The translations under genes were made by a program, and so were the position numbers. A model generated the notes under the pieces. It ran no database searches and was not told the origin of the DNA. It was given only the letters and a program-made list of their open reading frames with translations. Source: Acidobacteriota bacterium (lineage in GTDB: Bacteria > Acidobacteriota > Thermoanaerobaculia > Thermoanaerobaculales > Thermoanaerobaculaceae). From it: 62,610 bases of DNA. The stretch spans positions 1,657-64,266 of the forward strand of contig PMLC01000065.1 in NCBI GenBank assembly GCA_003158745.1, read 5' to 3'. How positions within the stretch are numbered: position 1 is the first letter of the stretch; every line of letters begins with the position of its first letter. This document shows positions 11,607 through 51,268 of the stretch, piece by piece.

Positions 11607-11611
11607 TTGTT

Positions 11612-35122: not shown

Positions 35123-36259
35123 GTGCCGCTCGACCTCGCTCGCTGGCTCCCTGAATTCCCGGTGCGGCAGCATTGCCTCTACCTTAACCACGCGGCCGTC
35201 GCCCCGCTCCCGCGACGGGTGGCCGACGCGATGCGCGACCGGATCGCCGACCAGGAGAGCGTCGGCTCCCACAACTGGCAGCGCTGGCGCGAGACCGAGC
35301 TGTCCACCCGGGCGCTCGCTGCCGAGCTGATGGGCTGCCGAGCCGAGGACGTCTCGCTCGTACGCAGCACCTCTGAGGGGCTCTCACTGATCGCTCAAGG
35401 GCTGACCTGGAAGAAGGGCGACGCGGTTCTGGTCGGCGAGGAGGAGTTTGCCGCCAACGTCGCACCCTATCTCGCCCTGCATCGGCGTGGGGTCAGCGTA
35501 CGGCGCTTCCCTACTCCGGGCGGCCGGCTCACTCCGGAAGTCGTGCTGCCCCTCCTCAAGCCGCCGGTGCGCATGCTGGCCCTTTCGTGGGTCGCGTTCC
35601 ACACCGGATGGGTAGCACCGGTGGCCGAACTCGCCTATGCCGCGCACGAGCGCGACGTCCTTGTGGTTCTCGACGCAATTCAAGGGCTCGGCGTCCTTCC
35701 CGACCGGTTCGACGAGCTGGGCGTGGATGCGATGGTCGCGGACGGACATAAGTGGCTGCTGGGTCCCGAGGGCGTCGGCGTGATGGCGACGAAGCCGGCG
35801 TTGCGGTCAGCACTTCACCCCGTCCTGGCTGGATGGCTCAACGTGCGGCGTCCGGACAACCAACTTTTCCTCCATGAACTCGAGTTTCACGCGGACGGGC
35901 GGCGATTCGAGCCCGGCGCGATGCCGAATATCCTCGTCGCCGGACTGGCGGCCGCGCTCGATCTGTTGCTGGAGGCCGGGATCGGTGAGATCCACACCCG
36001 CGTAGTCAGCCACGCTCGCGCGTTGACCCAGGTCCTCCTCAAGGCAGGGTGGCGCGTAGGATCGCCGGGCTCAGGGCACCCGATTGCCGGGATCGTCGCT
36101 GCGCGTCACCCGATCCTGCCGGCCGACGATGTCGCGCGCCGCCTCCGCGAGCGCCACATCGAGGTCACTGCGCGGCAGGGCTGGGCCCGTTTCTCGCCCC
36201 ACTTCTACGCCACCGCTGGCGAGATCGATGCCCTCGGGGTTATCCTCGGGAAACTATAA
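35123..36259 (+). CDS. Class V aminotransferase-fold PLP enzyme
   Basis: The 378-residue enzyme has the fold type I core: YLNHAAVAPLPRRVADAM at the N-terminus, VLVVLDAIQGLGVLP with the PLP-nitrogen Asp, and DGHKWLLGPEGVG with the Schiff-base lysine. The sequence is near the isopenicillin-N-epimerase/selenocysteine-lyase branch, so it may be a lyase, epimerase or transaminase. I chose GTG 35123 because it follows TATACT by six bases and the product starts just before the conserved N-terminus. The next gene, a flavin-dependent oxidoreductase, follows after 22 bases and an ABC exporter after that, which suggests a small biosynthetic unit. Confidence 0.82.
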   Translation: MPLDLARWLPEFPVRQHCLYLNHAAVAPLPRRVADAMRDRIADQESVGSHNWQRWRETELSTRALAAELMGCRAEDVSLVRSTSEGLSLIAQGLTWKKGDAVLVGEEEFAANVAPYLALHRRGVSVRRFPTPGGRLTPEVVLPLLKPPVRMLALSWVAFHTGWVAPVAELAYAAHERDVLVVLDAIQGLGVLPDRFDELGVDAMVADGHKWLLGPEGVGVMATKPALRSALHPVLAGWLNVRRPDNQLFLHELEFHADGRRFEPGAMPNILVAGLAAALDLLLEAGIGEIHTRVVSHARALTQVLLKAGWRVGSPGSGHPIAGIVAARHPILPADDVARRLRERHIEVTARQGWARFSPHFYATAGEIDALGVILGKL

Positions 36260-36269
36260 CGAGACGAGG

Positions 36270-36275
36270 TACAAT
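36270..36275 (+). promoter_or_regulatory. -10 box TACAAT of a probable leaderless mRNA
   Basis: TACAAT is followed by TTAGCC and the GTG at 36282. It lies in the 22-base gap after the aminotransferase gene, so the oxidoreductase may have its own promoter. Confidence 0.5.
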
Positions 36276-36281
36276 TTAGCC

Positions 36282-37586
36282 GTGGCCGGTGAGCGCGCGG
36301 TAGACGTGTTGATCCTCGGAGGGGGACCTGCCGGAAGCACCGCCGGGACGCTCCTCGCTGCGGCTGGTCTCGAGACCGTGATCCTGGAGGGCGAGCGCTT
36401 CCCCCGCTTCCATGTCGGGGAGTCGCTCCTGCCCCACACCTTGCCGCTCCTTGACCGCCTCGGCGTCCATGAGGCCGTGCGGGCCCTCCCGCACACCCGC
36501 CGCAAGGACGGCGCCAGCTTCGTGAGCCACGACGGAAGCCGGCACGTAGTCTACTGGTTCGAAGACGCATTTGCCCCGGTAATCCCCCACGCGTACCAGG
36601 TTCGGCGGGACGAGTTCGACGCCGCGTTGCTCGCAAACGCCAGGGCCAAAGGCGCCGACGTCCTGGAGGGTTGGCACGCCGGGGCGCCACGGTGGGAGGG
36701 CAAGCGCCTCGTCGGGCTCGTCGTTCGGGAGCCCGGGGGCGGCGAGCGCGTGATCCGATGCCGCGCTTTCCTGGACGCGAGCGGCCAGTCGTCGTTCCTC
36801 GCCAGCCGGATGGGGTGGCGTTTCCCGTACCCGATGCACCGGAAGGTCGCGGCAGTGTCGCACTTCAAGGGAGTCTGGCTGCCCCCGGAGCGGGAGGCTG
36901 GCAACATCACGATCGTACTGGCGGATGGGGGATGGTTCTGGCTGATCCCCTTCGCCGACGACACCGTCTCGGTCGGAGCGGTGCTCGACGTGGAGAAGTG
37001 GCGGGCCTCAGGGGGCACCCCGGAGAGCCTCTTCAGCGCCGCAGTGCAGGCGACGCCGGAAGTCGCGCGCAGGCTGGAGCACGCCGAGCGCCTAATCCCT
37101 TTCAGCGCAGTCCAGAACTTCTCCTACCGGGTGATGCAGATCGGCGGTGACGGGTACTGCCTCATAGGCGACGCCGCGGGGTTCCTCGACCCCATCTTCT
37201 CGACTGGCGTCTTCATTTCAACCACCACGGCTGCCTCGGCCGCCCAGGACATCATTGAATCTCTGATGCGCCACGGACGCGTCGATGCGAGCGACCTCGG
37301 GCCCACCATCTCGCTCACCCGGAGCCTGCACCGGCTCTTCTTCTCCTTCATCCGAGCGTACTACGACAGGCACTTCCTGGCGTTCTTCTTCAGCCCGACC
37401 GACGCTTCCCGGCTGACGGCCGCGATCGTTTCGCTGCTCGCGGCGGACGTGGTGCGGCCGGGACGGTGGAAGAAGACGATTCGGTTCCGAGCGCTGCAGG
37501 GCCTCGCGCGCGTCCAGCAGGTCGGAGCGCGCCTCGGGCGCCCAATCGTCGAGCCCCTCGCGGCCGGGCCGACCAGCGGGTCATGA
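36282..37586 (+). CDS. FAD-dependent oxidoreductase of the flavin halogenase/geranylgeranyl reductase group
   Basis: The 434-residue flavoprotein has the FAD motif VLILGGGPAGSTAG, FPRFHVGESLLP (typical of flavin-dependent halogenases), GWFWLIPFADDTVSVG (like the WxWxIP halogenase signature) and the second FAD motif GDAAGFLDPIFSTGV. It may halogenate or oxidise a carrier- or lipid-bound substrate; the conserved catalytic lysine of halogenases cannot be placed with certainty by eye. It lies between a class V PLP enzyme and an ABC exporter with gaps of 22 and 16 bases. It starts at GTG 36282 without a ribosome-binding site. Confidence 0.78.
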   Translation: MAGERAVDVLILGGGPAGSTAGTLLAAAGLETVILEGERFPRFHVGESLLPHTLPLLDRLGVHEAVRALPHTRRKDGASFVSHDGSRHVVYWFEDAFAPVIPHAYQVRRDEFDAALLANARAKGADVLEGWHAGAPRWEGKRLVGLVVREPGGGERVIRCRAFLDASGQSSFLASRMGWRFPYPMHRKVAAVSHFKGVWLPPEREAGNITIVLADGGWFWLIPFADDTVSVGAVLDVEKWRASGGTPESLFSAAVQATPEVARRLEHAERLIPFSAVQNFSYRVMQIGGDGYCLIGDAAGFLDPIFSTGVFISTTTAASAAQDIIESLMRHGRVDASDLGPTISLTRSLHRLFFSFIRAYYDRHFLAFFFSPTDASRLTAAIVSLLAADVVRPGRWKKTIRFRALQGLARVQQVGARLGRPIVEPLAAGPTSGS

Positions 37587-37602
37587 GCCGCCGAACCCAC
37601 CG

Positions 37603-39471
37603 ATGAGCGCCGAGCCCGACGCCGCCCCAGCGCCCTCCGACACCGGAGCCGATCGAGCCCTACTGCGCTGGCTGATCTCGTGGACCCGCCCCTACCGGGG
37701 TCGCATCGTAGGGGCGATCGCCCTGGTCCTGGCGGGCTCGGCGTTCCAGATCGCCGGCCCTCTCCTGACGGCAGCCGCGATCGACCTCTACATGAAGCCG
37801 CAGCCCGGCACCAGCGCCCAGCATGTGCTGCACTTCATGCAGGCGCTCCACCTGCCAACCGTGGGCCCTGCGGGCCTGGCCGCCTTGGTGGCTCTCTACC
37901 TCGCGAGCGTGATGGGCTCTGCTTTCCTGCTGATCCTGCAGGCACGCACGATGCTGATGACCGGTCAGCTCGTGATGCGCGACCTGCGCGATGCGCTCTT
38001 CGCCCACCTCCAGCGTCTCGATGTCGCATGGTTCAACCGCACGCCGGCCGGACGCGTCATCACGCGGCTCACCAGCGACGTCGAGGCTCTCAACGAGCTC
38101 TTCACCTCCGGCCTCGTCGAGATCCTGGCCGATCTTTCGGTGCTTGGCGGGATCGCGACCATCCTGTTTGCCCTGGACTGGCGCCTCGCCTTCGTCGCCT
38201 TTGCCGTTCTGCCTTTCATGATCCTCCTGTCCGGGTGGTTCCGGAGGCGGGCACGGTCGATCTACCGAGAGGTGAGAACGCGCGTCGCCGCAATCAACAC
38301 GCACCTCCAGGAGCACTTGTCCGGGATGTCTGTGGTCCAGTTGGCCCGCGCCGAGCAGCGCACCTCGGCAGCGTTCAGGGAGCTGGATGCGGCTCACCGC
38401 GACATCAACATCCGCGGCGTCTTCTACTACGCGGTGTTCTACCCGATGGTGGAGATTCTGATCGCGAGCGGCATGGCGCTGCTGCTTGTGTTCGGCGGGG
38501 CGTGGAAGTACGGAGGAACCCTCTCCATCGGCGTGCTATTCGCGTTCCTGCAGTATGTCCAGCGGTTCTTCCGGCCGATCGCCGACCTGGCCGAGAACTA
38601 CAACATCCTGCAGGCCTCGTTCGCGGCTGCCGAACGCCTCAAGGGACTCCTGTCCACCGTGCCCGGGATCGCTCAGCCGGCGCTGCCCTTTTCGCCTCCC
38701 GAGCATGCGAGCACGTTCGCGTTCGACCGGGTCTGGTTTGCCTACGAGGGGGAGAACTGGGTCCTACGAGACGTCGCGTTCTCGGCTCGCGGTGGCGAGC
38801 GCCTCGCCGTCGTGGGTCACACAGGGGCCGGGAAGAGCACGCTTGTCAACCTCCTCCTGCGCTTCTACGACGTCCAGCGCGGCAGCGTGACGGTCGCCGG
38901 GACGGACGTCCGCCAGTGGGACCTCGCCCACCTTCGCAGGCGCTTTGCGGTGGTTCTTCAGGAGATCGATTGCTTTGCTGGCAGTCTCCGCGAGAACGTG
39001 TCGCTCGGGCGTCGTGGCGTGGACGACGCCCGCATCCGCTGGGCACTCGAGCAGGTCGGGGCCGGACCGCTCCTCGACCGGCTCCCCCAGGCGCTGGACA
39101 CGGTTCTCGCCGAGCGCGGCACCGGGCTCTCGGTGGGCGAGCGTCAGCTCGTCTCCTTCGCCCGAGCGCTTGTGGGCGACCCCGAGTTCCTTCTGCTGGA
39201 CGAGGCGACAGCGTCCGTCGACCCGCTCACGGAGGCCGTTATCCAGCACGCTCTCGAGAGAGTCCTCGCCGGGCGCACGGCCCTCATCATCGCCCACCGA
39301 CTCGCAACCGTGGTGGGCTGCGACCGTGTGATGGTGATGCACTCCGGCCAGCTGGTCGAGCAGGGCACCCATGTGGAACTGCTCGCGCGCGGAGGACTTT
39401 ACCGCGCACTGTACGAGCTTCAGCTCCTGCGGCCGCCCGAGGAACGCGACTCTGCCGCAGGGCAACGGTAG
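37603..39471 (+). CDS. ABC exporter half-transporter, MsbA-like
   Basis: The 622-residue protein has six transmembrane helices (residues about 25-320) followed by an ATPase domain. The domain has Walker A GHTGAGKSTLVNLLLR, the Q-loop VVLQEIDCFAGSLRENV, signature LSVGERQLVSFARAL (LSVGE in place of LSGGQ) and Walker B LLLDEATASVD. Type IV exporters of this kind work as homodimers and export lipids, peptides or small molecules. It follows the flavin oxidoreductase by 16 bases and precedes a lipid A-type acyltransferase, so a lipid or lipid-like cargo is plausible. Confidence 0.88.
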   Translation: MSAEPDAAPAPSDTGADRALLRWLISWTRPYRGRIVGAIALVLAGSAFQIAGPLLTAAAIDLYMKPQPGTSAQHVLHFMQALHLPTVGPAGLAALVALYLASVMGSAFLLILQARTMLMTGQLVMRDLRDALFAHLQRLDVAWFNRTPAGRVITRLTSDVEALNELFTSGLVEILADLSVLGGIATILFALDWRLAFVAFAVLPFMILLSGWFRRRARSIYREVRTRVAAINTHLQEHLSGMSVVQLARAEQRTSAAFRELDAAHRDINIRGVFYYAVFYPMVEILIASGMALLLVFGGAWKYGGTLSIGVLFAFLQYVQRFFRPIADLAENYNILQASFAAAERLKGLLSTVPGIAQPALPFSPPEHASTFAFDRVWFAYEGENWVLRDVAFSARGGERLAVVGHTGAGKSTLVNLLLRFYDVQRGSVTVAGTDVRQWDLAHLRRRFAVVLQEIDCFAGSLRENVSLGRRGVDDARIRWALEQVGAGPLLDRLPQALDTVLAERGTGLSVGERQLVSFARALVGDPEFLLLDEATASVDPLTEAVIQHALERVLAGRTALIIAHRLATVVGCDRVMVMHSGQLVEQGTHVELLARGGLYRALYELQLLRPPEERDSAAGQR

Positions 39472-39610
39472 ACCGGAACGACAGAGGGCCACATTCCGGA
39501 CCGGCTCAGAAGGCTCCACCGAGTAAGTGGCCACCTGGTCATGCCCGATGGAGCCGGACTCTGGTAGATTTGTCGCGGTCGCTTCGACACGTCGTACACC
39601 GGGAGGTGCG

Positions 39611-39820
39611 ATGGCTGATACAGGGCGGCTTTCCGGCTTGCGCGACTCGATCGCAGACGTCGTCCGTGCGCTGCTCAAGCTGCTCCGGTGGCACATGACC
39701 CTTACCCCGCAGATCGGGCCCATCAAGGCGGAACCAGCGGAGCCCGTCGTGGTCCTGGACGTGGGGGGTTTCCACTCCGCCCTGACGCTAGCGCGGCGGG
39801 TGCTGAACGGCGACGCATGA
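39611..39820 (+). CDS. Small protein (69 aa) coupled to the acyltransferase
   Basis: I do not recognise this small protein. It starts at ATG 39611, with GGGAGG five bases upstream, and its stop overlaps the start of the acyltransferase in an ATGA, so the two are translationally coupled. The first half is amphipathic and basic (GLRDSIADVVRALLKLLRWH), and the second is more polar (AEPAEPVVVLDVGGFHSALT). It is not strongly hydrophobic, so a membrane-surface or partner role is possible. The strong ribosome-binding site and the overlap support a real gene. Confidence 0.6.
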   Translation: MADTGRLSGLRDSIADVVRALLKLLRWHMTLTPQIGPIKAEPAEPVVVLDVGGFHSALTLARRVLNGDA

Positions 39821-40731
39821 AGCCGCGCTACTACCTCGAGCATGCCTGCGTGCTCGGTCTGTCGGCGATTCTGCGCGCCCTCCCGAGACCGGTCGCGCTT
39901 GAGGCGGGCGCGGCGCTGGGGCAGCTCGGCTGGTGGCTCCGGATCCGGCGCGGGGTTGTCCTTGCCAACCTGGAGCAGGCGTTCCCCGAGATCGACGCGG
40001 CCGGGAGGCGCCTCATCGCCGCACGGGCCGCCCGCAACTTCGGCCGGACGGTGGCGGAGTTCGTCCGCTTTGCAGGGTCCGATCGCAACCGCGTGGGCGA
40101 CCTCGTTAGGCTCAGCGGGACGGAAGCGCTTCGGGCCTCGCTCGAGGGCGGCGGCGCGATCGTCGTTACGGCCCACGTCGGCGCCTGGGCGCTCTACGTG
40201 ACGGCTCTGGCGGCCTCCGAGATCCCGAGCGCGCTTCTCGTTGGGCGCCAACACAACCCGATGGTCCAGCGTTTCATCTTGGGAATCCCCGGCGAGGCGG
40301 TGCGCTTCGTGCCGAAGGCCAGCGGCGCGCCGCGAGAGATCCTGCACTGCCTCCGAGACGGCCGGGCCGTCGTGATGGTCGCCGACCACCGGGCCGGGCG
40401 GAGCGGGTTGTTGGCGCCGTTCCTGGGACGCGATGCGGTGACCCTCCCGCTACCGGGCGCGATCGCGGCGCGCTACCAAACCCCGATTTTCGTAATGACC
40501 GGCCATCGGATGCCGGACGGTCGCCACCAGGTCGCCATCGCCCCGCTCGCGGTCCACGACGATCGGGCCGACGAGGAGCAGCTTCGCCTCGCCGTCACAG
40601 CTGCCTGCAACGACGCGCTCGGCGCCGCGATCAGGGCATGCCCCGAGCAGTACTTCTGGTACCACCGTCGGTGGCTCAACGCCCCGGCGACCGATGGGGC
40701 CACCGGATCGCTGGCCGGCAACACGCCCTGA
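39817..40731 (+). CDS. Lipid A-type (LpxL/HtrB-like) acyltransferase with altered catalytic motif
   Basis: The 304-residue protein has the fold and motif order of lipid A late acyltransferases: an N-terminal hydrophobic anchor, RGVVLANLEQAFPE, a catalytic-region block VVTAHVGAWALY, LLVGRQHNPMVQRFI, VMVADHRAGRSGLLAPFLG and the C-terminal PEQYFWYHRRW. In LpxL the motif is H-x4-D/E; here it is H-V-G-A-W-A, so the acidic partner is Ala. Either another residue serves or activity has changed. It sits at the inner face of the inner membrane. It overlaps the upstream small protein gene. Its stop codon directly abuts the stop of the SRAP gene on the other strand. Confidence 0.8.
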   Translation: MKPRYYLEHACVLGLSAILRALPRPVALEAGAALGQLGWWLRIRRGVVLANLEQAFPEIDAAGRRLIAARAARNFGRTVAEFVRFAGSDRNRVGDLVRLSGTEALRASLEGGGAIVVTAHVGAWALYVTALAASEIPSALLVGRQHNPMVQRFILGIPGEAVRFVPKASGAPREILHCLRDGRAVVMVADHRAGRSGLLAPFLGRDAVTLPLPGAIAARYQTPIFVMTGHRMPDGRHQVAIAPLAVHDDRADEEQLRLAVTAACNDALGAAIRACPEQYFWYHRRWLNAPATDGATGSLAGNTP

Positions 40732-41406
40732 CTACCGCGGAGCGAGTGGCTCCCGACAGGCCGGCACGTCGTTGGCCGGGTTGTTCACGAGCAGGCCAAC
40801 TGGAAACGCCCGGACCGCTTCGGCCGGCTGAGGCCGGAGCACCGGCAGGAGTTCTGAAGCTCCCTCGACGCCAGAGTCGAGCCACAGTGCGTGGTCCTGC
40901 GCGTCGAGGATCACGGGCATCCGGTCGTGGATCGGAGCAATCACCTCGTTTGCACTGGTGGTCAGGATCGTACACGATTCGATCGGCTCCGATCCGTTGG
41001 GAGCCCAACGCTCCCACAGGCCGGCGAAGGCGAACGGGCCGCCGTTGCGCAACCCGATGAAGTACGGCTGCTTGCGCGCGCCGAGGCGCTGCCACTCGTA
41101 GAAACCGTCGGCGAGGACCAGACACCGCCGGCTCCGGAGCGCGGCCCTGAAAGCCGGCTTGTCGGCAACGGTCTCGGCGCGTGCATTGATCATCCGCGAC
41201 CCAATCGAACGGTCCTTCGCCCACGATGGGATCAGGCCCCAGCGCAACTCCACGAGAACGCGGCCGCCTTCGACCCCGGCCCGCACCGCCGCGACGTCCT
41301 GTGTGGGCGCGATGTTGTAGCGAGGCGTCAGCTTCGGCACCTCCGGAAGGTCAAAGAGCTCGGCGATGACCTCGCCAGGCGCCGCCTGGGTGAACCGGCC
41401 ACACAT
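40732..41406 (-). CDS. SRAP-domain abasic-site-processing protein (YedK/HMCES)
   Basis: The 224-residue protein caps abasic sites in single-stranded DNA by a covalent bond through Cys2. It begins MCGRFTQ as required, and has NIAPTQDVAAV, RWGLIPSWAKD, MINARAETV, LVLADGFYEW (active-site Glu) and HDRMPVIL (active-site His). The length is normal. TATCAT six bases before the ATG suggests a leaderless mRNA, which would start exactly at the AUG whose next codon is the catalytic Cys. The 3' end touches the acyltransferase 3' end. Confidence 0.95.
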   Translation of the reverse strand: MCGRFTQAAPGEVIAELFDLPEVPKLTPRYNIAPTQDVAAVRAGVEGGRVLVELRWGLIPSWAKDRSIGSRMINARAETVADKPAFRAALRSRRCLVLADGFYEWQRLGARKQPYFIGLRNGGPFAFAGLWERWAPNGSEPIESCTILTTSANEVIAPIHDRMPVILDAQDHALWLDSGVEGASELLPVLRPQPAEAVRAFPVGLLVNNPANDVPACREPLAPR

Positions 41407-41412
41407 GGGTCA

Positions 41413-41418
41413 ATGATA
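41413..41418 (-). promoter_or_regulatory. -10 box TATCAT of a probable leaderless mRNA
   Basis: On the minus strand TATCAT is followed by TGACCC and the ATG at 41406, without a ribosome-binding site. Confidence 0.45.
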
Positions 41419-41423
41419 GGCCC

Positions 41424-41618
41424 GTTCGAACGTCCGCCCTTTTGAAGGTTCTCAGATTCGTTTGTCCGGATGTTCAGAACGTCGAATAGAGGGAAGAAGG
41501 AAGACGGAAGATGGAATGCAAGAAGGAGCGGTAGACCACTCGTGTCTTTCCCCTTCCAGCGATCCTCTCCCCTTCCACGGGAACTTCCGAACCTTCGAAC
41601 GTGCGAACCTGTGAACGG
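41424..41618. repeat. Nested hairpin repeat of 8-bp and 7-bp words
   Basis: Outer arms have an 8-bp period. On the left, 41445-41476, the words are AAGGTTCT, CAGATTCG, TTTGTCCG, GATGTTCA. On the right, 41588-41618, they are CGAACCTT, CGAACGTG, CGAACCTG, TGAACGG, which pair as NNNGTTCN with NGAACNNN. Inside, on the left, is a 7-bp series GGAAGAA, GGAAGAC, GGAAGAT, GGAATGC (41492-41519), and on the right a TTCC-rich complement (41547-41588). It fills the gap between the SRAP gene's 5' end and the hydrolase gene's 3' end. No open frame is convincing. Confidence 0.75.
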
Positions 41619-41627
41619 AACCTGGGC

Positions 41628-42467
41628 TCAGACCGCTCCGGAACGTCGCAGGGGCCGGATCCGGGCAGCAGGCTGCGGGAAGTGCTCCCTCAGGAAACCG
41701 AGGATCGCTTCGGCGGTCGGGATCGGCCTCTCCATGCTCGGGGTGTGACCGGCCGACGCCATCTCGACAAGGCGTGCTTTGGGCATGGCGGCAGCCATCG
41801 CGCGGGACGAGGCCGGGGGCGTGAGGGAGTCCTCGTGGCCCACGATCACGAGCGCAGGGAGGTCCAGAGCGGGCAGCAATGCGGCGCTGTCGGGTCGGTC
41901 GCGCATCCCTGCGAGGCATCCGGTGAGCGCATCCGGGGCAGCGTCCGCCGCGATCGCCCGCAGCTCCTCGAGCAGCCTCGGCGCCCGCGCCTTGCTCGAC
42001 GGACCCACGAGGCCCGCGACAAATTCGTCGAGGAAAGCGGAAACCTCGCCAGCGGCGATTCTACCGATGCTCGCGTCACGACGCTGCATCCCCTCCGGCG
42101 TGTCCGCCTCCGCCCTGGTGTCGACCAGGATCAGACCGGCTAGGCGCTCCGGGCGAACGGCCGCGACGCGGAGGGCGATGTAGCCACCCATCGAGTGACC
42201 CCCGAGGACGAAGCGGCCGAGTCCAAGCGCATCGGCCACACGGACGACGTCGTCCGCCAGTTCGATCATGGCGTAGCCCGTCTTTGGCTTGTCGGACGCC
42301 CCGAACCCCCGCAGGTCCGGCGTGATGAGTCGCGCGGCCTGTTCGACCGCTGTCCGTATCGGCGTCCACATCGCCGATGAGAGCGGAAACCCGTGCAGCA
42401 GGACGACCGGCACGCCCTCGCCGTGATCCTCAACCTCCAAGGTCACAGCACCCAGGTCGATCCGCAT
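41628..42467 (-). CDS. Alpha/beta hydrolase
   Basis: The 279-residue enzyme has the alpha/beta-hydrolase fold: VVLLHGFPLSSAMW (oxyanion region), the nucleophile elbow GGHSMGGYIAL, the acid strand VIVGHEDSLTPP and the histidine AGHTPSME. It probably hydrolyses an ester, lactone or similar bond; 3-oxoadipate enol-lactonase-like proteins have the same order, but the substrate cannot be set from sequence. I chose ATG 42467, with GGAGGCGCG upstream, over a long upstream extension that runs into repeat sequence. It lies between two repeat hairpins. Confidence 0.85.
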   Translation of the reverse strand: MRIDLGAVTLEVEDHGEGVPVVLLHGFPLSSAMWTPIRTAVEQAARLITPDLRGFGASDKPKTGYAMIELADDVVRVADALGLGRFVLGGHSMGGYIALRVAAVRPERLAGLILVDTRAEADTPEGMQRRDASIGRIAAGEVSAFLDEFVAGLVGPSSKARAPRLLEELRAIAADAAPDALTGCLAGMRDRPDSAALLPALDLPALVIVGHEDSLTPPASSRAMAAAMPKARLVEMASAGHTPSMERPIPTAEAILGFLREHFPQPAARIRPLRRSGAV

Positions 42468-42530
42468 CGCGCCTCCCTTGTTGGTCAGTGTATGCCTCTC
42501 GCCGCCTCTCCGCCGCGCCTCAGCAATCGG

Positions 42531-42694
42531 AGGTTCAAACGTCCAACGGCAGCAGAGGGGCAGAGGAGGCGGGGAGCAGAGGAGCACGAGACGCACCCAC
42601 CATTTGCGTGTCTGTCCCCTCTGCACCTCTGCTGTTGAAGAACCCCCGAACTTGCGAACGTTCCTCAGCTCCTCCGCTCCTCTGCCCGCCGCTC
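42531..42694. repeat. Nested hairpin repeat of 8-bp words
   Basis: The series GCAGAGGG, GCAGAGGA, GGCGGGGA, GCAGAGGA, GCACGAGA (42552-42591, exact 8-bp steps) pairs with CCCCTCTG, CACCTCTG, CTG (42616-42634) across the apical stem AGACGCA/TGCGT. A second 8-bp series CCTCAGCT, CCTCCGCT, CCTCTGCC (42663-42686) could pair with the same left arm instead. Outer words AGGTTCAA, ACGTCCAA on the left and CGAACTTG, CGAACGTT on the right match the outer words of the hairpin at 41424. The DNA up to the TPP riboswitch holds no gene. Confidence 0.75.
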
Positions 42695-42764
42695 TTGACG
42701 TTCCATCCCACTAGTGCGAGATTGTCTCCGGCACCTTTGTTCTTTGAGTTGTTCGATTGGCTTT

Positions 42765-42846
42765 CCGTGGGGGTGCCCCGCCGCGGGCGGGGCTGAGATC
42801 ACACCCTTGGAACCTGATCCGGGTCATGCCGGCGTAGGGAACGGGC
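42765..42846 (+). promoter_or_regulatory. TPP riboswitch (THI element)
   Basis: The conserved blocks are in order: GGGGGTGCCCC, GGGGCTGAGATCACACCC, TTGGAACCTGATCCGGGT and CATGCCGGCGTAGGGAAC, with P1 closed by CCGT and ACGG. These include the CTGAGA pyrimidine-sensing bulge and the ACCTGATC...GTAGGGAA diphosphate-sensing helix. Downstream, CCCTCCCC (about 42875) can pair with the ribosome-binding site GGAGGAG at 42901, so translational control of the TonB receptor is likely. A short GACGG-CACC-CCGTC hairpin also lies between them. Confidence 0.93.
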
Positions 42847-42909
42847 CACGAGGCGTCAGAGACGGCACCCCGTCCCTCCCCTGAACCCGGTCGCCCGGAA
42901 GGAGGAGTG

Positions 42910-45321
42910 ATGAGGTCGGTGATTCTGGCGCCGTTCGTGTTTCTTGCCGCCGCAAGCGTCGCGACGGCGGTGGTCCTGCGGGGTAAAGTCCTTGACTCTT
43001 CGAGCGACAAGCCGCTGTCCAGCGCCCTCGTCGAAGAGCTCTCGACTCACATGACCGCCATGACGGACGCGGCTGGCGTGTTCACGCTCGAGGTCGCTGC
43101 CGGGCCGCTCGAGTTGGCTGTGTCGCATACCGGCTACCGCGTGGTTCGCCTGACCCTCGCAGCACCAACGGTTCAGCCTCTCGCCGTTCGCCTGGACCCC
43201 GTGATCTCCATCGCCGACCGCGTTGAGGTCACTGCCGCCCGTGCCCGTGAGGGAACCGACCCCGTGAGCTTCACCAACCTGCCACAGGAGCGGATCCAGG
43301 AAACCTACTGGGGGCAGGACCCCGCGATCCTGCTTTCGCAGACCGTGCCCGGCTACTTCGCTTACAACGACAGCGGCAACGGCATCGGCTACTCGTACTT
43401 CTGGATCCGCGGCTTCAATCAGGCCCAGACGAGGGTTTCGCTCGACGGCGTGCCTCTCAACGACGCCTCGGACGGCGAGCTGTACTTCATCGACCTCGCC
43501 GACTTCCTCGCCACCGCCGGCGACGTGCAGATCCAGCGCGGCGTGTTCGGCCTCTCGGGCATCGGCGGTGCGGTGGACATCACTACGGCTCCTCCTTCGA
43601 TGACGCCCTCGTTCACGATCACGAGCGGGTTCGGGTCCTACAACACGCAGCGTGTGTCTACCCGCTGGGACTCCGGGCTGATCGACGGCAAGTGGGCCAT
43701 AACTGCTCGCTACTCGAAGGTCAAGACCGATGGCTACCGCGATCAGTCGTGGGTTGACATGTGGAACTACTACCTCTCTCTCGCGCACTTCGGCGAGCGC
43801 TCCCGCTGGCGCCTCGTCCTCTTCGGCGGCCCGGAGCAGACGCACCTCGCCTACGATGGCGTGCCCAAATCCGTGCTCGCCGGCGGCCTCACCGGCAGTG
43901 TCGACCGGGACCGGCGATTCAACCCGCTGACCTACCCTGGCGAGCAGGACAACTTCACACAGCCGCACTACGAGATCCTCCATGACGTGGCGATCTCGCC
44001 GCGGACCCAATTCTCCGAGGCGTTCTTCCTTTTCACCGGTAGCGGCTACTACACGGAGCACAAGACTGACGAGCCCCTCTCCTTCTACGACCTGCCGCCC
44101 GTCACGCTGTCCGACGGCACGGTCGTGACCAACACGGATCTCGTCCGCCACCGGCAGATCGACGAGTGGGACGCCGGATGGGTGCCGACGCTCACGACGA
44201 CCGTCGGAACCTGGACGCTTACCGCCAAAGGCGAGTTGCGCCTCCACGACGGCCACAGCTACGGCTCAGTGCAGTGGGCGCAGTACTACCCTCCGAACGT
44301 GGCGCCGGACCACCGCTACTACGACTACCAGCTCGGCAAGCGCAGCGCTGCGCTGTCGGGCACCGCCACATGGAAGGTCAGCGAGGCGCTCGCCCTCACC
44401 GCCGGCATCGAGGCCTCGCAGCAGCGCTACAACCTGTCACACGACGTGCTCGCCGCTGTCGATTTCGCACAAGCGTACGATTTCATCCTCCCCCGTTTCG
44501 GCGCCCTCCTCCACGTCAACGGCACGACCGACCTCTACTTCAACGTCGCGAAGGGCGGGCACGAGCCCGCGTTCCGCGAGATCTACGATCCGGAGGGCGA
44601 GTACTCGACGGAGCGGGTCAACCTACGCCCAGAGGACCTCTGGGACTGGGAGACCGGCGTCTCAACCCGTCACGAGCATTGGCGCGCGCGGGCCAACCTC
44701 TTCTTCATGAACTTCCTGAATGAGATCGTCTACAGCGGCGCCCTGGACTCAAGCGGCGTCCCGATCTACGGCAACGGCGCGCACTCCCACCACGAGGGGC
44801 TCGAGCTCGATGCCAGCGCCGACCCGCTCCCCTCCCTCGGATTCGACGGCACCTTGACGCTGTCGCACAACACGTTCGTTTCCTACCACGACTACAACAG
44901 CGACGGCAGCGTCAACGTGTACGACGGCAACGTCCTCGGCGGCTACCCCGAGGGGCTCGCGTCGCTCACCGCCCGCCTCAAACTCGGCGCCGCTCAGGTC
45001 GCGCTTGCCGGGCGCTACGTCGGCCAGTTCTACCTCGACAACACCCAGGACAACCGCCGCGACCCGGAACTGCGCCAGGCGTCCGGTTACGTGCCGCTCA
45101 TCAACCCAGCGTTCACCGTGCTTGACGCGTCGCTCCGCGCCCCTCTGCCAAGGGCGTTCGTGGCGTCGCTCGGCGTGAGCCGGCTCGACATCGAGGTCCG
45201 CCTCAACAACCTGCTCAACCGCCAGTACACCGCCTTTGGCTACATCGGCGACGATGGCGCCCCGCTGTTCATTCCGGCCGCCATGCGCAACGTCTACGTC
45301 GGGTTCACGCTCGGACTCTGA
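42910..45321 (+). CDS. TonB-dependent outer-membrane receptor under TPP control (thiamine-type uptake)
   Basis: The 803-residue protein has a signal peptide, a carboxypeptidase-like beta-sandwich domain (VLRGKVLDSSSDKPLSSALV to VRLDPVIS, about residues 20-100), a plug domain (VEVTAARAREGTDPVSFTNL, WIRGFNQAQTRVSLDGVPLND, GDVQIQRGVFGLSGIGGAVDI) and a beta-barrel ending in a typical aromatic-rich last strand NVYVGFTLGL. It imports a ligand across the outer membrane with TonB energy. The TPP riboswitch upstream implies that the ligand is thiamine, its phosphates or precursors, as known for TPP-controlled receptors in Bacteroidetes. ATG 42910 is favoured over GTG 42907 by spacing from GGAGG. Confidence 0.92.
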   Translation: MRSVILAPFVFLAAASVATAVVLRGKVLDSSSDKPLSSALVEELSTHMTAMTDAAGVFTLEVAAGPLELAVSHTGYRVVRLTLAAPTVQPLAVRLDPVISIADRVEVTAARAREGTDPVSFTNLPQERIQETYWGQDPAILLSQTVPGYFAYNDSGNGIGYSYFWIRGFNQAQTRVSLDGVPLNDASDGELYFIDLADFLATAGDVQIQRGVFGLSGIGGAVDITTAPPSMTPSFTITSGFGSYNTQRVSTRWDSGLIDGKWAITARYSKVKTDGYRDQSWVDMWNYYLSLAHFGERSRWRLVLFGGPEQTHLAYDGVPKSVLAGGLTGSVDRDRRFNPLTYPGEQDNFTQPHYEILHDVAISPRTQFSEAFFLFTGSGYYTEHKTDEPLSFYDLPPVTLSDGTVVTNTDLVRHRQIDEWDAGWVPTLTTTVGTWTLTAKGELRLHDGHSYGSVQWAQYYPPNVAPDHRYYDYQLGKRSAALSGTATWKVSEALALTAGIEASQQRYNLSHDVLAAVDFAQAYDFILPRFGALLHVNGTTDLYFNVAKGGHEPAFREIYDPEGEYSTERVNLRPEDLWDWETGVSTRHEHWRARANLFFMNFLNEIVYSGALDSSGVPIYGNGAHSHHEGLELDASADPLPSLGFDGTLTLSHNTFVSYHDYNSDGSVNVYDGNVLGGYPEGLASLTARLKLGAAQVALAGRYVGQFYLDNTQDNRRDPELRQASGYVPLINPAFTVLDASLRAPLPRAFVASLGVSRLDIEVRLNNLLNRQYTAFGYIGDDGAPLFIPAAMRNVYVGFTLGL

Positions 45322-45401
45322 CCTCGGCGCCACGCGGTACGAGCGCGGCCCCTGCGAAGGACCGCGAGTTCCTGTGGAGGGGCGAGGTCGAACCGCAGGC
45401 G

Positions 45402-45440
45402 TCTGGTACCGGCCGGCCAGCGGCCGGCCGGTACATCAGA
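45402..45440. terminator. Strong bidirectional hairpin between convergent genes
   Basis: GTACCGGCCGGCC (45406-45418), loop AGC, and GGCCGGCCGGTAC (45422-45434) form a perfect 13-bp stem, extendable by TCTG and CAGA past a two-base bulge. It lies 84 bases after the receptor stop and 53 bases before the NYN gene's stop. There is no U-run, so it may act as a Rho-independent-like or RNA-protecting structure for both transcripts. Confidence 0.6.
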
Positions 45441-45493
45441 AACCACCGCTGTCTCTAGGCTGCGGGGCCGCGCGCGGCCGGGCACGTGCGACG

Positions 45494-46390
45494 TCAGGCG
45501 CTCTCGGATCCGGGCGACGGTTCGGCGGCCGCCTTGGGCGTCTTGCGCGAGCGGCGCCGCGGACGTCGCGTCTTCTCCGCCGGCTTTTCCTCGGCAGCCG
45601 TTTCGCTGATGGAATCCTCCGCGCTCGCTTCCCCGCTGCCGGAGTCGAACCCCGTCACGACGTAGGTCCCCGAGCGCTGATCGCGGCGGAGCTTGACGAC
45701 GTGGTGTTTCTCGGCATCTTCGAGGAGCGCGGAGAACGTCGAGTACCCGAAGTACTCCTCGTTGAACTCCGGGCGCTTGCGCTGCATCGTCTGCTTGATC
45801 ATCGAGCCCCAGAGGACCTCCTTGCCGTCGCGCATGACCGCCTTGATCGAGTCTGCGAGAAGCGCGAAGCACTCCCTCTGCTTCTTCGGAAGCCCGACGA
45901 GCGGCGGCGCCTCTTGCACGGAGCGAATGAGGTCCTCGTAGAAGACGAACTCGTCGCAGCTCGAGACCAGGAGCTCTGACGTCGAGTTCTTCACCCCCAG
46001 TCCGATCACGTACTTGTCGTTCTCCCGCAGCTTTCCCACGAGGGGCGAGAAGTCCGAGTCGCCCGAGCAAAGCGCGAACGTCGTCACGTGCTCTTTGGCA
46101 TAGCAGAGGTCGAGGGCATCCACCACCATCCGAATGTCGGCCGAGTTCTTACCCGAGTAACCTCTGAGCGGAATGTCGATCAGCTCGATCCCGGCCTCGT
46201 GGAACGGGCGCTTGTAGGCGCCGTAACGCTCCCAGTCGGCGTAAGCCCGGCGGGCGACGACCTTTCCCTTCTCCAGGAGCCGCGCGAGGACGAGCTGGAT
46301 GTCGAACGTCTTGTAGCTGGTGTCGCGGACGCCCAGGGCGATGTTCTCGAAATCGATGAAGCACGCGATCTTGTGATCTTCCAGCGGCAT
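45494..46390 (-). CDS. NYN-domain (LabA-like) ribonuclease with LOTUS/OST-HTH domain
   Basis: The 298-residue protein has an N-terminal NYN nuclease domain of the PIN-like fold. Its metal-binding aspartates sit in CFIDFENIALG, NSADIRMVVDALDLCYA and LCSGDSDFSPLVGKL. A LOTUS-type winged-helix region follows at about 165-240 (ALLADSIKAVMRD, EYFGYSTFSALLEDAEKHHVVKL), then a basic low-complexity tail (KTRRPRRRSRKTPKAA). LOTUS domains bind RNA, often G-quadruplex RNA, so an RNA-processing role is inferred. All three aspartates are present. It starts at ATG 46390, with GGGGGTGG upstream. Confidence 0.85.
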   Translation of the reverse strand: MPLEDHKIACFIDFENIALGVRDTSYKTFDIQLVLARLLEKGKVVARRAYADWERYGAYKRPFHEAGIELIDIPLRGYSGKNSADIRMVVDALDLCYAKEHVTTFALCSGDSDFSPLVGKLRENDKYVIGLGVKNSTSELLVSSCDEFVFYEDLIRSVQEAPPLVGLPKKQRECFALLADSIKAVMRDGKEVLWGSMIKQTMQRKRPEFNEEYFGYSTFSALLEDAEKHHVVKLRRDQRSGTYVVTGFDSGSGEASAEDSISETAAEEKPAEKTRRPRRRSRKTPKAAAEPSPGSESA

Positions 46391-46505
46391 CACGCCACCC
46401 CCAAGGCACGGCCCGAATTCCAGCCTTGCTTCTCGATGCTACTGGCCGCAAGCTGCGGGCGCAACTGGCGGCCACGAGGACCACCACTCCTTGGGTCTGT
46501 GTTCC

Positions 46506-47987
46506 TTAGACCTGTGCAGGGACGAGGGAGGGCTTGGAGACCTCACCCTTCGCGAGCCGGTCGAGCCATGCCTGAATCCCGAGCGCGGCCTGCTTGCCGG
46601 CACCCATCGCCAGGATCACGGTGGCCGCGCCGGTCACGATGTCGCCGCCGGCGAAGACCCCCGGGATCGAGGTCATCATGGTCGCCTCGTCCACGACGAT
46701 GTTGCCGTGGCGGTTGAGTTCGAGGCCCGGCGTGGACTTCGTGGCGAGAGGGTTGGGGCCCTGGCCGATCGCGATCACCATTGTGTCAATCGGTATCTCG
46801 TACTCCGACCCCTCGATCGGCACGGGCCGCCGCCGCCCGGAGGCATCGGGCTCCCCGAGTTCCATGCGCTGGATCCTCAGGCCGGTCACGAACCCGTCGT
46901 TGTTCCCGAGGATCGCGACCGGAGCCGAGAGCCAGCGGAAGTCGATCGTCTCTTCCTCGGCGTGCTCGAGCTCCTCGCGGCGCGCCGGCGACTCGTTGCG
47001 GGTGCGCCGGTAGACGCAGATGACCTCCTCCGCGCCCAGCCTCTTGGCCACGCGGAGACAGTCCATCGCGACGTTCCCGGAGCCCACGACCGCGACCCGC
47101 CTGCCCGTACGGACCGGCGTGTCGGTACGCGGGAAGTTGTAGGCCTTCATCAGGTTCACGCGGGTCAGGAACTCGTTGGCGGAGAGCACCCCGATGTAGT
47201 TCTCGCCCGGGATGCCGAGGAAGTACGGCAGGCCGGCGCCGGTCCCCAGGAACACCGCGTCGTACCCGTGACCGTTCAGGAGTTCGTGCACGGTAGCGGT
47301 CTTGCCGATCACAAAGTCCGTCCGCATCTCGACGCCCATGCCGCTGAGGTTGTCGATCTCGAACCTGACGATCTCCTTCGGAAGACGGAACTGCGGTATC
47401 CCGTACACGAGCACGCCGCCCGGCTTGTGGAGCGCCTCGAAGATCGTGACCTTGTGCCCGAAGCGCGCGAGCTCCGCGGCGCAGGCGAGGCCCGCCGGTC
47501 CGGAGCCGACGATCGCGACCGTGTGCCCCGACGCCGGCGCGAGCTGTGGCGTCGAGGAGAGCCCGAGCCGCCGTTCCCAGTCCGCGACGAAGCGTTCGAG
47601 GCGGCCGATCGCCACGGGCTTGTACTTCTTGCCGAGCACGCACACGACCTCGCACTGCTCCTCCTGGGGGCAGACGCGACCGCAGATCGCGGGGAGCGTG
47701 TTGGTCTCCTTGATCTTCGCGAGCGAGCCCGTGAAGTCGCCCTCGCGGATGAGCTGGACGAAGGCGGGGATGTCGATGCCGACCGGGCACCCTTTCACGC
47801 ACGGCGGGTTGGCGCACTGCAGGCAGCGCTGCGCCTCCTCGAGGGCGAACTCGGGCTTGTACCCAAGCGCCACCTCCTCGAAGTTCCGGATGCGCTCGAG
47901 CGGCTCCTGGGTCGCCATCGGGTGCCGGGGCACCTTCATGCGCTCGGCCTTCGGGAGCTCGGGAACGCCGCGAACCTCGTCAGCCAT
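46506..47987 (-). CDS. nfnB: NfnB/GltD-type NADPH oxidoreductase subunit
   Basis: The 493-residue protein has N-terminal 4Fe-4S cysteines (CLQCANPPCVKGCPVGIDIP and CGRVCPQEEQCEVVC), then an FAD domain (VAIVGSGPAGLACAAELA), an NAD(P)H domain (VAVVGSGNVAMDCLRVAKRL) and the C-terminal FAD block GVFAGGDIVTGAATVILAMG. This is the large subunit layout of NADH-dependent reduced ferredoxin:NADP oxidoreductase, also shared with the glutamate synthase small subunit. The NfnA-like partner gene upstream overlaps its start by eight bases, which favours NfnAB or sulfide dehydrogenase over GltD; no large glutamate synthase subunit is here. I chose ATG 47987. Confidence 0.85.
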   Translation of the reverse strand: MADEVRGVPELPKAERMKVPRHPMATQEPLERIRNFEEVALGYKPEFALEEAQRCLQCANPPCVKGCPVGIDIPAFVQLIREGDFTGSLAKIKETNTLPAICGRVCPQEEQCEVVCVLGKKYKPVAIGRLERFVADWERRLGLSSTPQLAPASGHTVAIVGSGPAGLACAAELARFGHKVTIFEALHKPGGVLVYGIPQFRLPKEIVRFEIDNLSGMGVEMRTDFVIGKTATVHELLNGHGYDAVFLGTGAGLPYFLGIPGENYIGVLSANEFLTRVNLMKAYNFPRTDTPVRTGRRVAVVGSGNVAMDCLRVAKRLGAEEVICVYRRTRNESPARREELEHAEEETIDFRWLSAPVAILGNNDGFVTGLRIQRMELGEPDASGRRRPVPIEGSEYEIPIDTMVIAIGQGPNPLATKSTPGLELNRHGNIVVDEATMMTSIPGVFAGGDIVTGAATVILAMGAGKQAALGIQAWLDRLAKGEVSKPSLVPAQV

Positions 47988-48846
47988 TGGCGACCCCCTT
48001 GAGGGCACGGCACTCGTGGCTTGCGAGGAAGCTCTCTCGTGCGACCTGCTCCTCGGGCAGGTACATCCTCAGACGCTTGATCAGCAGGTCGAAGTCGACC
48101 TGGTGGGCGTCGAACTCGGGCCCGTCCACGCACACGAACTTGGTCTTGCCGTCGACCGAGATCCGGCAGGCGCCGCACATCCCGGTGCCGTCCACCATGA
48201 TCGAGTTCAACGAGGCCAGCGTTGGGATCGCGAGCGGCCGGGTCATCTCCGCGACCGCCTTCATCATGATCGCGGGTCCGATCGCGACCACGAGGTCGGG
48301 CTTCCCCTTCTCCGCGATCAGGTCGGCGAGCGCATGCGTCACCAGGCCCTTGCGCCCGAAGGAGCCGTCGTCGGTCGTGTAGACGATCTCGTCCGAAACC
48401 GCCTCCATCTCGGCCCTCAGGATCACGAGCTCCTGGGTGCGGCCGCCCAGGATCGAGAGGACGCGGTTGCCGGCTTTGCGCAAGCCGCCCGCGATCGGCA
48501 GCATGGGTGCGATCCCGGCCCCGCCGCCGATGCACACGACGGTCCCGAAGCGCTCGAGATGAGTCGGGGTCCCGAGCGGCCCCACCACCGAGAGGAACGC
48601 GTCCCCCGCCGACATCAGGCCCATGGCCATGGTCGTCTTGCCGACTTCCTGGACCACGAGCGTGATCGTCCCGGCCTCGGCATCCGACGCCGCGATCGTG
48701 AGAGGGATGCGCTCGCCGGTCTCCGCCGGGAGGACCATGACGAACTGCCCCGGCCTGTGCTTGCGGGCGATCTCGGGGGCTTCGACGACGAAGCGGTGGA
48801 ACTTGGGCGCGATTTCTTCTCTGGAGAGAACCGTGAACACGCTCAT
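47980..48846 (-). CDS. nfnA: NfnA/SudB-type FAD and 2Fe-2S subunit
   Basis: The 288-residue subunit has a ferredoxin-reductase-like FAD domain (RPGQFVMVLPAETGERIPLTIA), an NAD-binding region (VCIGGGAGIAPMLPIAGGLRKAG) and a 2Fe-2S site DGTGMCGACRISVDGKTKFVCVDG, whose Asp and three Cys match the unusual Asp-coordinated cluster of NfnA. With NfnB it may couple NADH and reduced ferredoxin to NADPH formation by flavin-based electron bifurcation, or act as sulfide:NADP oxidoreductase. A good promoter lies at 48933-48961. The start is ATG 48846. Confidence 0.88.
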   Translation of the reverse strand: MSVFTVLSREEIAPKFHRFVVEAPEIARKHRPGQFVMVLPAETGERIPLTIAASDAEAGTITLVVQEVGKTTMAMGLMSAGDAFLSVVGPLGTPTHLERFGTVVCIGGGAGIAPMLPIAGGLRKAGNRVLSILGGRTQELVILRAEMEAVSDEIVYTTDDGSFGRKGLVTHALADLIAEKGKPDLVVAIGPAIMMKAVAEMTRPLAIPTLASLNSIMVDGTGMCGACRISVDGKTKFVCVDGPEFDAHQVDFDLLIKRLRMYLPEEQVARESFLASHECRALKGVANG

Positions 48847-48932
48847 GCCTCCGTCGGCTGCGGACGTTGGTCGCCACGTTTGGACTGTCGGTTGGGGTAC
48901 CGGCGTGCGCCGCTGAAGCCTTGCACCGGGTC

Positions 48933-48961
48933 ATACTATGATCCGGGGAGAGGTTTGGCAA
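48933..48961 (-). promoter_or_regulatory. Sigma70-type promoter of nfnAB
   Basis: On the minus strand TTGCCA (48961-48956) and TAGTAT (48938-48933) are 17 bases apart, near consensus. Transcription would begin around 48926, leaving an 80-base leader before nfnA. The remaining bases up to 49067 show nothing else recognisable. Confidence 0.6.
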
Positions 48962-49067
48962 CAGTCCGCTTTCCTCAGGCGACCGGGCATCATTGAGACG
49001 ACGTATCACAACTGCCCACGGCCCCCTCCGGGCCGCTCTGCCCGCGCCTACCCTGCAACGGCGATGC

Positions 49068-49073
49068 TACGCT
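49068..49073 (+). promoter_or_regulatory. -10 box TACGCT of a probable leaderless mRNA
   Basis: TACGCT is followed by TGCTTT and the GTG at 49080. There is no ribosome-binding site. Confidence 0.4.
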
Positions 49074-49079
49074 TGCTTT

Positions 49080-50054
49080 GTGGACATCGAGGTCGCGAGC
49101 GCCGTGGAGCGTCTGGTTGGAGAGGGAAACCTCACACCCGAGCAGGCGCTCGTGCCCCGGCGCGCGGCGCGCGGCGAGCTGCTGTCCGTCAGGTTCGAGC
49201 TCCGCACCCTGCTCTGGCTGGGCGTTTCCCTCGTCGTCTCGGGCGTCGGTCTGCTCGTCAAGGAGAACCTCGATCGCATCGGGCCGCTGACGATCGCCGT
49301 GACGCTCGGCGCAGCGGCCGCGGCGTGCCTCACCTGGGTGGCGCGGGTCTCCCCCCCGTTCTCATGGGGCGAGCAGCCCTCACCCAACCTCGCGTTCGAC
49401 TACGTCCTTCTCCTCGGCGCCGCCCTCATCGGCGCCGACCTCGCGTTCATCGAGGTGAAGTTCACGCCCCTGGGCCCCAACTGGCCGTGGCACCTCTTCT
49501 GGACCTCGCTCGCCTTCGCCGCGCTCGCCGTGCGCTTCGACTCGCGAGTCGTCTGGTCGCTCGCCCTCTCCACCTTCGCCGCGTGGCGCGGAGTTTCCAT
49601 GGGGACGCTCGCGAGCGCGCCGCTCGGTAACTGGCAACCCGCTCCACTGCGCGCCAACTCTATCGCGTGCGGCGCGATCTTCGTTCTCGGCGGGTTTCTC
49701 CTTCTCCACCTCCGAAGGAAACCGCACTTCGAGCCTGTCGCAGTGCACATGGGCTGGCTGCTCGTGCTCGGCGGGCTCGCTGCCGGCATGCTCGACCCGG
49801 GGGCGAGGACGAGGTGGGCTGCATGGGCGCTTGCACTTCTTGCCGTTGCGGGAGCGTTGACGTGGCTGGCGGCGCGCGCGCATCGGTTCTGGCTCTTCGC
49901 GATAGGCCTGCTCGGCGCGTACGCCGCCGTCAGCAGGTTCGTCGTCGAATCGGTGAGCGGGGATACCCAGCGTCAGGTATGGTTCCTCGCGTCCTCGATC
50001 GCCCTGGTCGTCGCCCTGGTCAGGATGAGGCATCGGCTGGAGGAGGCTCTGTGA
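49080..50054 (+). CDS. DUF2157-like polytopic membrane protein
   Basis: The 324-residue protein has a short N-terminal helical region (ASAVERLVGEGNLTPEQAL, the DUF2157-type pattern of a helix with GxxTxEQA). Eight or more membrane helices follow (for example LLWLGVSLVVSGVGLLV and HMGWLLVLGGLAAGML). The family is widespread and has no known function. It starts at GTG 49080, six bases after TACGCT. Its end overlaps the next gene by four bases (GTGA), and the second protein has a similar layout, so the two may form a pair in the membrane. Confidence 0.7.
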   Translation: MDIEVASAVERLVGEGNLTPEQALVPRRAARGELLSVRFELRTLLWLGVSLVVSGVGLLVKENLDRIGPLTIAVTLGAAAAACLTWVARVSPPFSWGEQPSPNLAFDYVLLLGAALIGADLAFIEVKFTPLGPNWPWHLFWTSLAFAALAVRFDSRVVWSLALSTFAAWRGVSMGTLASAPLGNWQPAPLRANSIACGAIFVLGGFLLLHLRRKPHFEPVAVHMGWLLVLGGLAAGMLDPGARTRWAAWALALLAVAGALTWLAARAHRFWLFAIGLLGAYAAVSRFVVESVSGDTQRQVWFLASSIALVVALVRMRHRLEEAL

Positions 50055-51220: not shown

Positions 51221-51256
51221 CCGGTCGCAGGCCCGGCGGCACCGCGAGCAGTGCGC

Positions 51257-51262
51257 TATCCT
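51257..51262 (+). promoter_or_regulatory. -10 box TATCCT of a probable leaderless mRNA
   Basis: TATCCT is followed by CGCTGG and the GTG at 51269, in frame with the helicase. An upstream in-frame GTG at 51251 is the alternative start. Confidence 0.4.
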
Positions 51263-51268
51263 CGCTGG

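Follow-up and report, generated by a model that had tools for sequence, protein, structure and literature searches.

Cyanobacterial STRRs and very small mobile repeats are reportedly the subject of papers by Mazel (1990), Elhai (2008) and Costa (2002). Among the known systems nearest to the repeats described here are REP elements, with which we group REPINs (PMC3116915). REP elements are palindromes of 20-40 bp with terminal CGTC or GTAG tags, the GTAG type being linked to RAYT genes (PMC3733652). Our repeats are likewise dispersed intergenic hairpins with dozens of diverged copies and a patchy distribution, but they are word arrays of about 100 bp with no linked RAYT.

Other systems share the short words. 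Heptamers are the over-represented spacer unit in the account of Rehm 2015 (PMC4692102); in Xanthomonas and Nostoc, GGGNATC heptamers are seldom found in divergent spacers, occur no more than 50 bp from stop codons and are mostly transcribed. The arrays reported here also consist of 7-bp spacer words, are rare in divergent spacers and lie near stops, and some GGGNATC repeats of Xanthomonas form inverted pairs. However, GGGNATC is one G-rich word with proposed G-quadruplexes, whereas we find several families, with units of 7 or 8 bp, many of them two-armed and nested. In the cyanobacterial tRNA-Leu intron, the P6b stem (PMC4476775) is similarly built from complementary 7-nt repeats, one class of which repeatedly replaced another at a single site; P6b sits in a self-splicing intron, whereas the word hairpins here stand free in spacers genome-wide. 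TAACTGA heptamers of Beggiatoaceae are also 7-bp intergenic words, but they are direct repeats ahead of start codons, with hardly any inverted (PMC4679880). The intrastrand triplex motif TMECO (PMC4666352) is like the hairpin studied here in being a purine/pyrimidine hairpin between genes, but it is a fixed 37-nt motif. Our arrays thus resemble described systems in single traits, and stand apart in combining nested, two-armed hairpins with more than one unit length (7 and 8 bp) and several word families. A literature search for the word strings returned no match.

A nested hairpin between two promoter-like blocks

The locus lies in a stretch of 62,610 nucleotides (the window) from an Acidobacteriota metagenome-assembled genome. 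A sequence-only reading had described 42531-42694 as a nested hairpin of 8-bp words with outer words akin to those at 41424, situated between divergent 5′ ends, and all of this stands. The features are as follows.

41424-41617, no strand: second composite hairpin, located in the hydrolase-SRAP spacer, with GTTCGAA words outside and GGAAGA-type words inside
42486-42493, minus strand: promoter-like CAGTGTAT block upstream of the hydrolase (from relatives)
42531-42546, no strand: outer GTTCGAA-type words, GGTTCAAACGTCC (sequence and fold)
42552-42685, minus strand: member of the ~100-bp GCAGAGGN hairpin family, one arm split by an insertion (18-copy alignment and covariance-model match)
42616-42633, no strand: near section of the pyrimidine arm, CCCCTCTGCACCTCTGCT (sequence and fold)
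42634-42662, no strand: 29-bp block made of 8-bp words of the GTTCGAA type, interrupting one arm after word 3 and before word 4 (absent from the other 17 aligned copies)
42663-42685, no strand: far section of the same pyrimidine arm, complement of words 1-3, GCAGAGGA GCGGAGGA GCTGAGG (sequence, fold and alignment)
42695-42723, plus strand: promoter-like sequence of the TPP-controlled receptor, TTGACG and GAGATT separated by 17 nt (sequence and relatives)
42759-42857, plus strand: TPP riboswitch aptamer RF00059, 72.5 bits

GCAGAGG words begin at 42552, 42560 and 42576, and CCTCTGC words at 42618, 42626 and 42679. Across 42531-42694, lag-8 self-matching is 74 against 41.5 ± 5.2 in 1,000 dinucleotide shuffles, none of which reached as high (z = 6.3); lags 5-7, 9, 10 and 12 remain inside z = 1.5, and lag 11 has z = 2.7. 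The predicted fold has −96.8 kcal/mol on the plus strand (z = −3.5 versus shuffles) and −115.5 kcal/mol on the minus strand (z = −4.0). The outer words, whose likeness to those at 41424 is that of GTTCAAACGTCC to GTTCGAACGTCC, are predicted to pair in part with the TonB promoter region (42693-42715). At Rfam gathering scores the TPP aptamer is the only match in the window, and the hairpin falls in no known Rfam family.

The hydrolase is encoded on the minus strand with its ATG at 42467, and the TPP aptamer lies on the plus strand. TTGACG (42695-42700) occurs at the same place at eight loci of relatives (L054, L055, L056, L057, L061, L062, L063 and L071), and (C/G)AGTGTA is conserved upstream of the hydrolase in L061, L062, L066, L067 and L069. 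From this conservation of 42486-42493 and 42695-42700, the hairpin sits between two promoter-like blocks. To judge by the promoter positions, it should therefore be outside both leaders and is probably transcribed from neither divergent promoter; its role would be at most that of a spacer or insulator.

When we looked for the hairpin in the corresponding hydrolase-TPP receptor spacers of relatives, it was absent. TTGACG and the hydrolase start are 228 bp apart in the window versus around 45 bp in L057 and L071, so the comparison of the locus that the earlier reading had proposed as a sign of mobility gives the mobile outcome. Elsewhere at the locus, a TonB-type receptor (window 42910-45321) lies behind the riboswitch, and the aptamer is upstream of it in all ten relatives scanned. 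In L056 (1183-1404) a CGTCATTGCGAG-type repeat replaces the word hairpin in the hydrolase-TPP spacer. A GAF-like gene (domain named by eye) is found whole between hydrolase and TonB receptor in L061 and L062 and upstream of the hydrolase in L065, L067 and L069; the window has no such gene at that place.

One arm split by a second word family

The earlier reading held that the words can pair either with the CCTCTG words near 42616 or with the far words near 42663, and that this could give two RNA or cruciform states. Folding contradicts this. In the pairing ensemble of both strands, the far arm (42662-42692) has words 42552-42567 as its partner and, simultaneously, the near arm (42612-42634) has words 42576-42586; the degenerate word 42568-42575 joins the near arm on the plus strand and is split on the minus strand. 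With the far arm blocked, the minimum free energy changes to −75.9 (plus) and −89.5 (minus) kcal/mol, and with the near arm blocked to −81.4 and −99.0 kcal/mol. Sizeable folds persist with either arm blocked, a point in favour of a switch, but each block costs 15-26 kcal/mol. Because both arms are paired at once, and at this cost, they are complementary parts of one nested fold, which rules out competing arms.

The alignment accounts for the appearance of two arms. Followed along the reverse strand, the window copy has words 1-3 and next to them the 29 bp of GTTCGAA-type words (42662 to 42634), after which come word 4, the loop and the right arm; its left arm lies on the minus strand and is read from 42685 downwards. 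The 29-bp block, which separates the near and far arms, is absent from the other 17 aligned copies. The split is therefore an insertion of one repeat family into another, or a recombination between the two, and one arm interrupted by a GTTCGAA block was taken for two alternatives. A stretch similar to the block adjoins GCAGAGG words in L004. With simultaneous pairing, a split unique to this copy among 18, and a hairpin that ends just before TTGACG and lies upstream of the hydrolase's promoter-like block, so probably in neither leader, we regard an RNA switch or cruciform with alternative 3′ arms as highly improbable.

An intrastrand triplex was considered and rejected by a sequence argument: both pyrimidine arms of the window copy run antiparallel to the purine arm, and the three-strand geometry of TMECO is missing. 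Separately, the hydrolase-SRAP spacer of L070 (G005; 2326-2539) contains CCCTCTCCC-GTG-GGGAGAGGG-ACA-GGGCGAGGG, a match by eye to the triplex consensus of E. coli (PMC4666352).

A dispersed element of about 100 bp

A search of the same genome with the hairpin region gave at least 107 matches, with the best 40 of 151 candidates scored. Eighteen copies align as one element of about 100 bp (about 98 bp aligned), in which a left arm, GCAGAGGA GCGGAGGG GCTGAGGA GCAGAGGG, is followed by a loop and a right arm. Each 33-bp arm comprises four 8-bp words (GCAGAGGN) or their complements around a loop of some 30 bp. Variant words recur at fixed positions, the loops of the 18 places are similar and the flanks are unrelated.

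We built a covariance model from 11 copies, which match it by construction. The window copy matches as G000:C40:44208-44341:- (39.1 bits, E = 8e-5). In the whole genome the model has at least 110 matches over both strands, counted as about 55 places; this is a lower bound, since 150 of 3,460 candidates were scored. At E = 1e-6, with 111 candidates scored per genome, 7 of the 37 genomes of the order are positive and 30 negative; four of the positives are among the nine genomes of the genus, and the other three belong to one genus of another family. Of 396 genomes of the phylum, 10 contain an exact three-word pattern, chiefly in the form of GCAGAGGC runs, and some of these genomes, such as G151 and G064, also form hairpins.

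Homology along the whole element is confined to the GCAGAGGN family, in comparison with CAGTNNA and GAGTNNA. A CAGTNNA query recovered no further copies and a GAGTNNA query one weak copy (65%); copies of these two families have words in common, but not loops. This last observation would suit a purely mutational origin, in which slippage in place and template switching generate 7/8-bp arrays and inverted copies spacer by spacer, as would the identical 7/8 unit across unrelated word families. Against it stand the positional variants and loop likeness common to the 18 places of the GCAGAGGN family, and an invariant arm polarity (below); we consider such an origin quite unlikely.

Word arrays of 7 and 8 bp across spacers

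Related arrays are widespread between genes. We sampled 790,259 bp of the same genome (699 genes from a home-made caller; 80,692 intergenic bp) and counted intergenic array-like segments for each lag. Lags 7 and 8 stand out with 139 and 117 segments, respectively; lags 5, 6, 10, 11, 13 and 18 have 5-9, and the codon lags (9 and 12) have 14. The contigs were partly picked for a match to the window hairpin, which biases the absolute density upwards and leaves the lag contrast unbiased. An independent 557-kb sample of a relative (G001) has 83 segments at lag 7, 28 at lag 8 and at most 9 at other lags. The excess of 7-bp units in spacers, by which heptamer and octamer word repeats are recognized, is thus present in both genomes. 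Among samples of other relatives, the 7/8 excess is present in G004, G020 and G022 and absent from G007, G011 and G024.

Word families with 8-bp units include GCAGAGGN and GGTTCGAA, and those with 7-bp units include CAGTNNA, GAGTNNA, AGGTCAA, CGTGGTC and GTCCGGG. Arm polarity is invariant, all 51 of the two-armed cases having the same word in the 5′ arm. Outside the arrays, AAGAC/GTCTT is the top enriched pentamer (46 versus 14.2 expected), and a RAGAC/GTCTY motif is found towards the element centre (58 versus 16). One further 7-bp hairpin in the window is used below.

11476-11611, no strand: CAGTNNA word hairpin (7-bp) between convergent genes, with GTCCGGG-type words there in G001

Further classes of the phylum have similar hairpins built from different words. 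In other families of the phylum, G151, G207, G275, G223 and G064 (L191-L203 and L208) have 7/8-bp word hairpins or arrays, with words such as CGCAGAGG, CGCAAAGG, GACCTTG and GTCATTG. Similar words may also exist in further phyla.

Pairing, transcription and termination

Across 11 element copies, one pair changed on both sides compared with 3.5 in shuffles, so that compensatory change is rarer than expected, and pairing is 86.2% compared with 87.7% (499 of 500 shuffles at least as high). In the stems of 55 tandem array spacers (1,892 Watson-Crick pairs and 320 others), there is no G-U excess on the sense strand (168 G-U versus 153 A-C, p = 0.43). Nor are the hairpins followed by T tracts: TTTT occurs in 0 of 79 tails, and the T fraction is 0.205 versus 0.19. 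We therefore see no sign of an RNA structure under selection and rejected an intrinsic terminator, the latter in agreement with the earlier remark that the hairpin is not simply a terminator. A consensus scan of 36000-55000 found 13 terminator-like sites against 8.7 expected, and a Rho gene is present.

Word order points the other way. When words were permuted within one array, the best stem fell from 45.4 to 43.6, being lower in 43 and higher in 20 of 66 spacers (p = 4e-4). This excess fits past inverted copying or weak selection.

Gene context and word swapping

Arrays are unevenly distributed among spacers. In spacers of at least 100 bp of the same genome, they occupy 62 of 178 tandem, 18 of 37 convergent and 7 of 62 divergent spacers (Fisher p = 8e-5); in G001 the counts are 21 of 94, 18 of 35 and 6 of 48 (p = 0.019). 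In two of the divergent cases an overlooked gene seems to end immediately ahead of the array; the hairpin at 42531-42694 is genuinely divergent in context. In the 62 tandem spacers, the median distance is 11.5 bp from the stop to the array and 57.5 bp from the array to the following start (p = 0.004). The same trend in G001 is non-significant (36 versus 71, n = 21, p = 0.48).

Orthologous spacers tend to be occupied jointly. Of 85 pairs, 6 were occupied in both genomes, 5 only in our own, 6 only in the relative and 68 in neither (p = 7e-4), with small numbers and rough gene calls; for non-divergent pairs of at least 100 bp in both, collapsed by own spacer, the corresponding counts are 5, 1, 4 and 11 (p = 0.046). 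The words of jointly occupied spacers usually differ between the species, and two spacers have a family in common. At 11476-11611, CAGTNNA in our genome is exchanged for GTCCGGG. The hydrolase-SRAP spacer (41407-41627), which in relatives has other words than those of 41424-41617, holds GTTCGAA with GGAAGA in our genome versus GTTCGAA with GAGTNNA and AGTGAAG with GGAAGAG. In G001, 130 bp of words are inserted after a stop codon of a gene pair that overlaps by 14 bp in our genome.

Such patterns would be expected if the hairpins punctuated gene ends as terminators or 3′-end protectors, with structure mattering and words not, and with lost hairpins replaced by others. Proximity to stops, avoidance of divergent spacers, joint occupancy mostly with other words, and an arm order above permutation all favour this. 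Yet T tracts, a G-U excess and covariation are absent, stop proximity is non-significant in G001, the window copy lies between two promoters, and joint occupancy weakens once restricted and collapsed; on balance we think punctuation unlikely. A bolder proposal, which we put forward tentatively and doubt more than we believe, is that spacers are addresses kept occupied by hairpins. The fixed traits would be only the 7-/8-bp step, the arm polarity and the AAGAC-type inner linker, and a putative copying machine working in 7-/8-nt steps would exchange the words found at one address in different species.

Spread of the element and candidate enzymes

The element has the inverted terminal repeats and many dispersed places of a MITE (33-bp arms, about 55 places), but it shows no target-site duplication (1.63 bp among 19 copies versus 1.52 bp in permuted flanks, p = 0.42). 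The best whole-element pairs of at least 80 bp are 85% identical, so no recent jump was caught; one pair reaches 93% over 71 bp. By the traits of REP elements, the aligned length of about 98 bp exceeds 20-40 bp. Instead of an unpaired GTAG or CGTC end tag, there is RAGAC/GTCTY towards the centre; inspection by eye of 19 element ends with flanks revealed no common tag of either type.

Y1 transposases occur in nine of nine genomes of the genus, with or without the element, and their presence is uncorrelated with it. Of the Y1_Tnp loci L104-L108, none of which has a RAYT gene flanked by the repeat, a two-armed word hairpin adjoins only one (L106). We found no link between Y1 loci and the element, and a Y1/RAYT transposase was rejected as its driver. 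The Y1 genes at L105 (337-1421) and L106 (801-1925) are bounded by unrelated terminal inverted repeats of their own, whose cores are of the GGTAC type.

Another repeat, some 150 bp long and marked by CGGCTACG/CGTAGCCG and GATGGTCCG motifs, is also dispersed; its copies are at most 86% identical, and it often lies beside word hairpins. Its sites include C4:11036-11468, C7:17887-18272, C82:12174-12338 and C2:29528-30019 in G000, and G001:C63:86114-86572.

Conclusions

We conclude that 42531-42694 is probably a composite of dispersed DNA hairpins, in which one arm of a single ~100-bp GCAGAGGN-family copy is split by a GTTCGAA-family block, and that copies probably spread as DNA and then decay. 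In favour are the positional variants and unrelated flanks of the 18 copies, the dozens of matching places, the patchy distribution, the absence from relatives' spacers, the G001 insertion, the lack of compensatory change and of a G-U excess, and the uneven use of spacer types. The best reading is a REP/MITE-like dispersed DNA hairpin that decays after insertion. Copies would spread as DNA through a putative enzyme or by template switching and may persist mainly where no promoter is harmed, that is, after stop codons and between tandem or convergent genes. Pairing would then be lost through uncompensated mutation. The simplest reading of the pairing data is that the hairpin is fixed in the spreading element and decays without compensation afterwards; it would be a feature of the form that spreads rather than a maintained switch. 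Against this explanation count the lack of a linked transposase, of a target-site duplication and of a recent jump, and the restriction of element-wide homology to the GCAGAGGN family. Joint occupancy of orthologous spacers and arm order above permutation also count against it and could reflect selection.

In place of the supposed local RNA switch there is now a class of small hairpin repeats, spread through the genome and filling many spacers in an uncultured acidobacterial lineage. Their strict 7/8-bp unit, nesting and word swapping within the same spacer would bear on the origin of bacterial intergenic repeats and on the question of selection for hairpins at gene ends.
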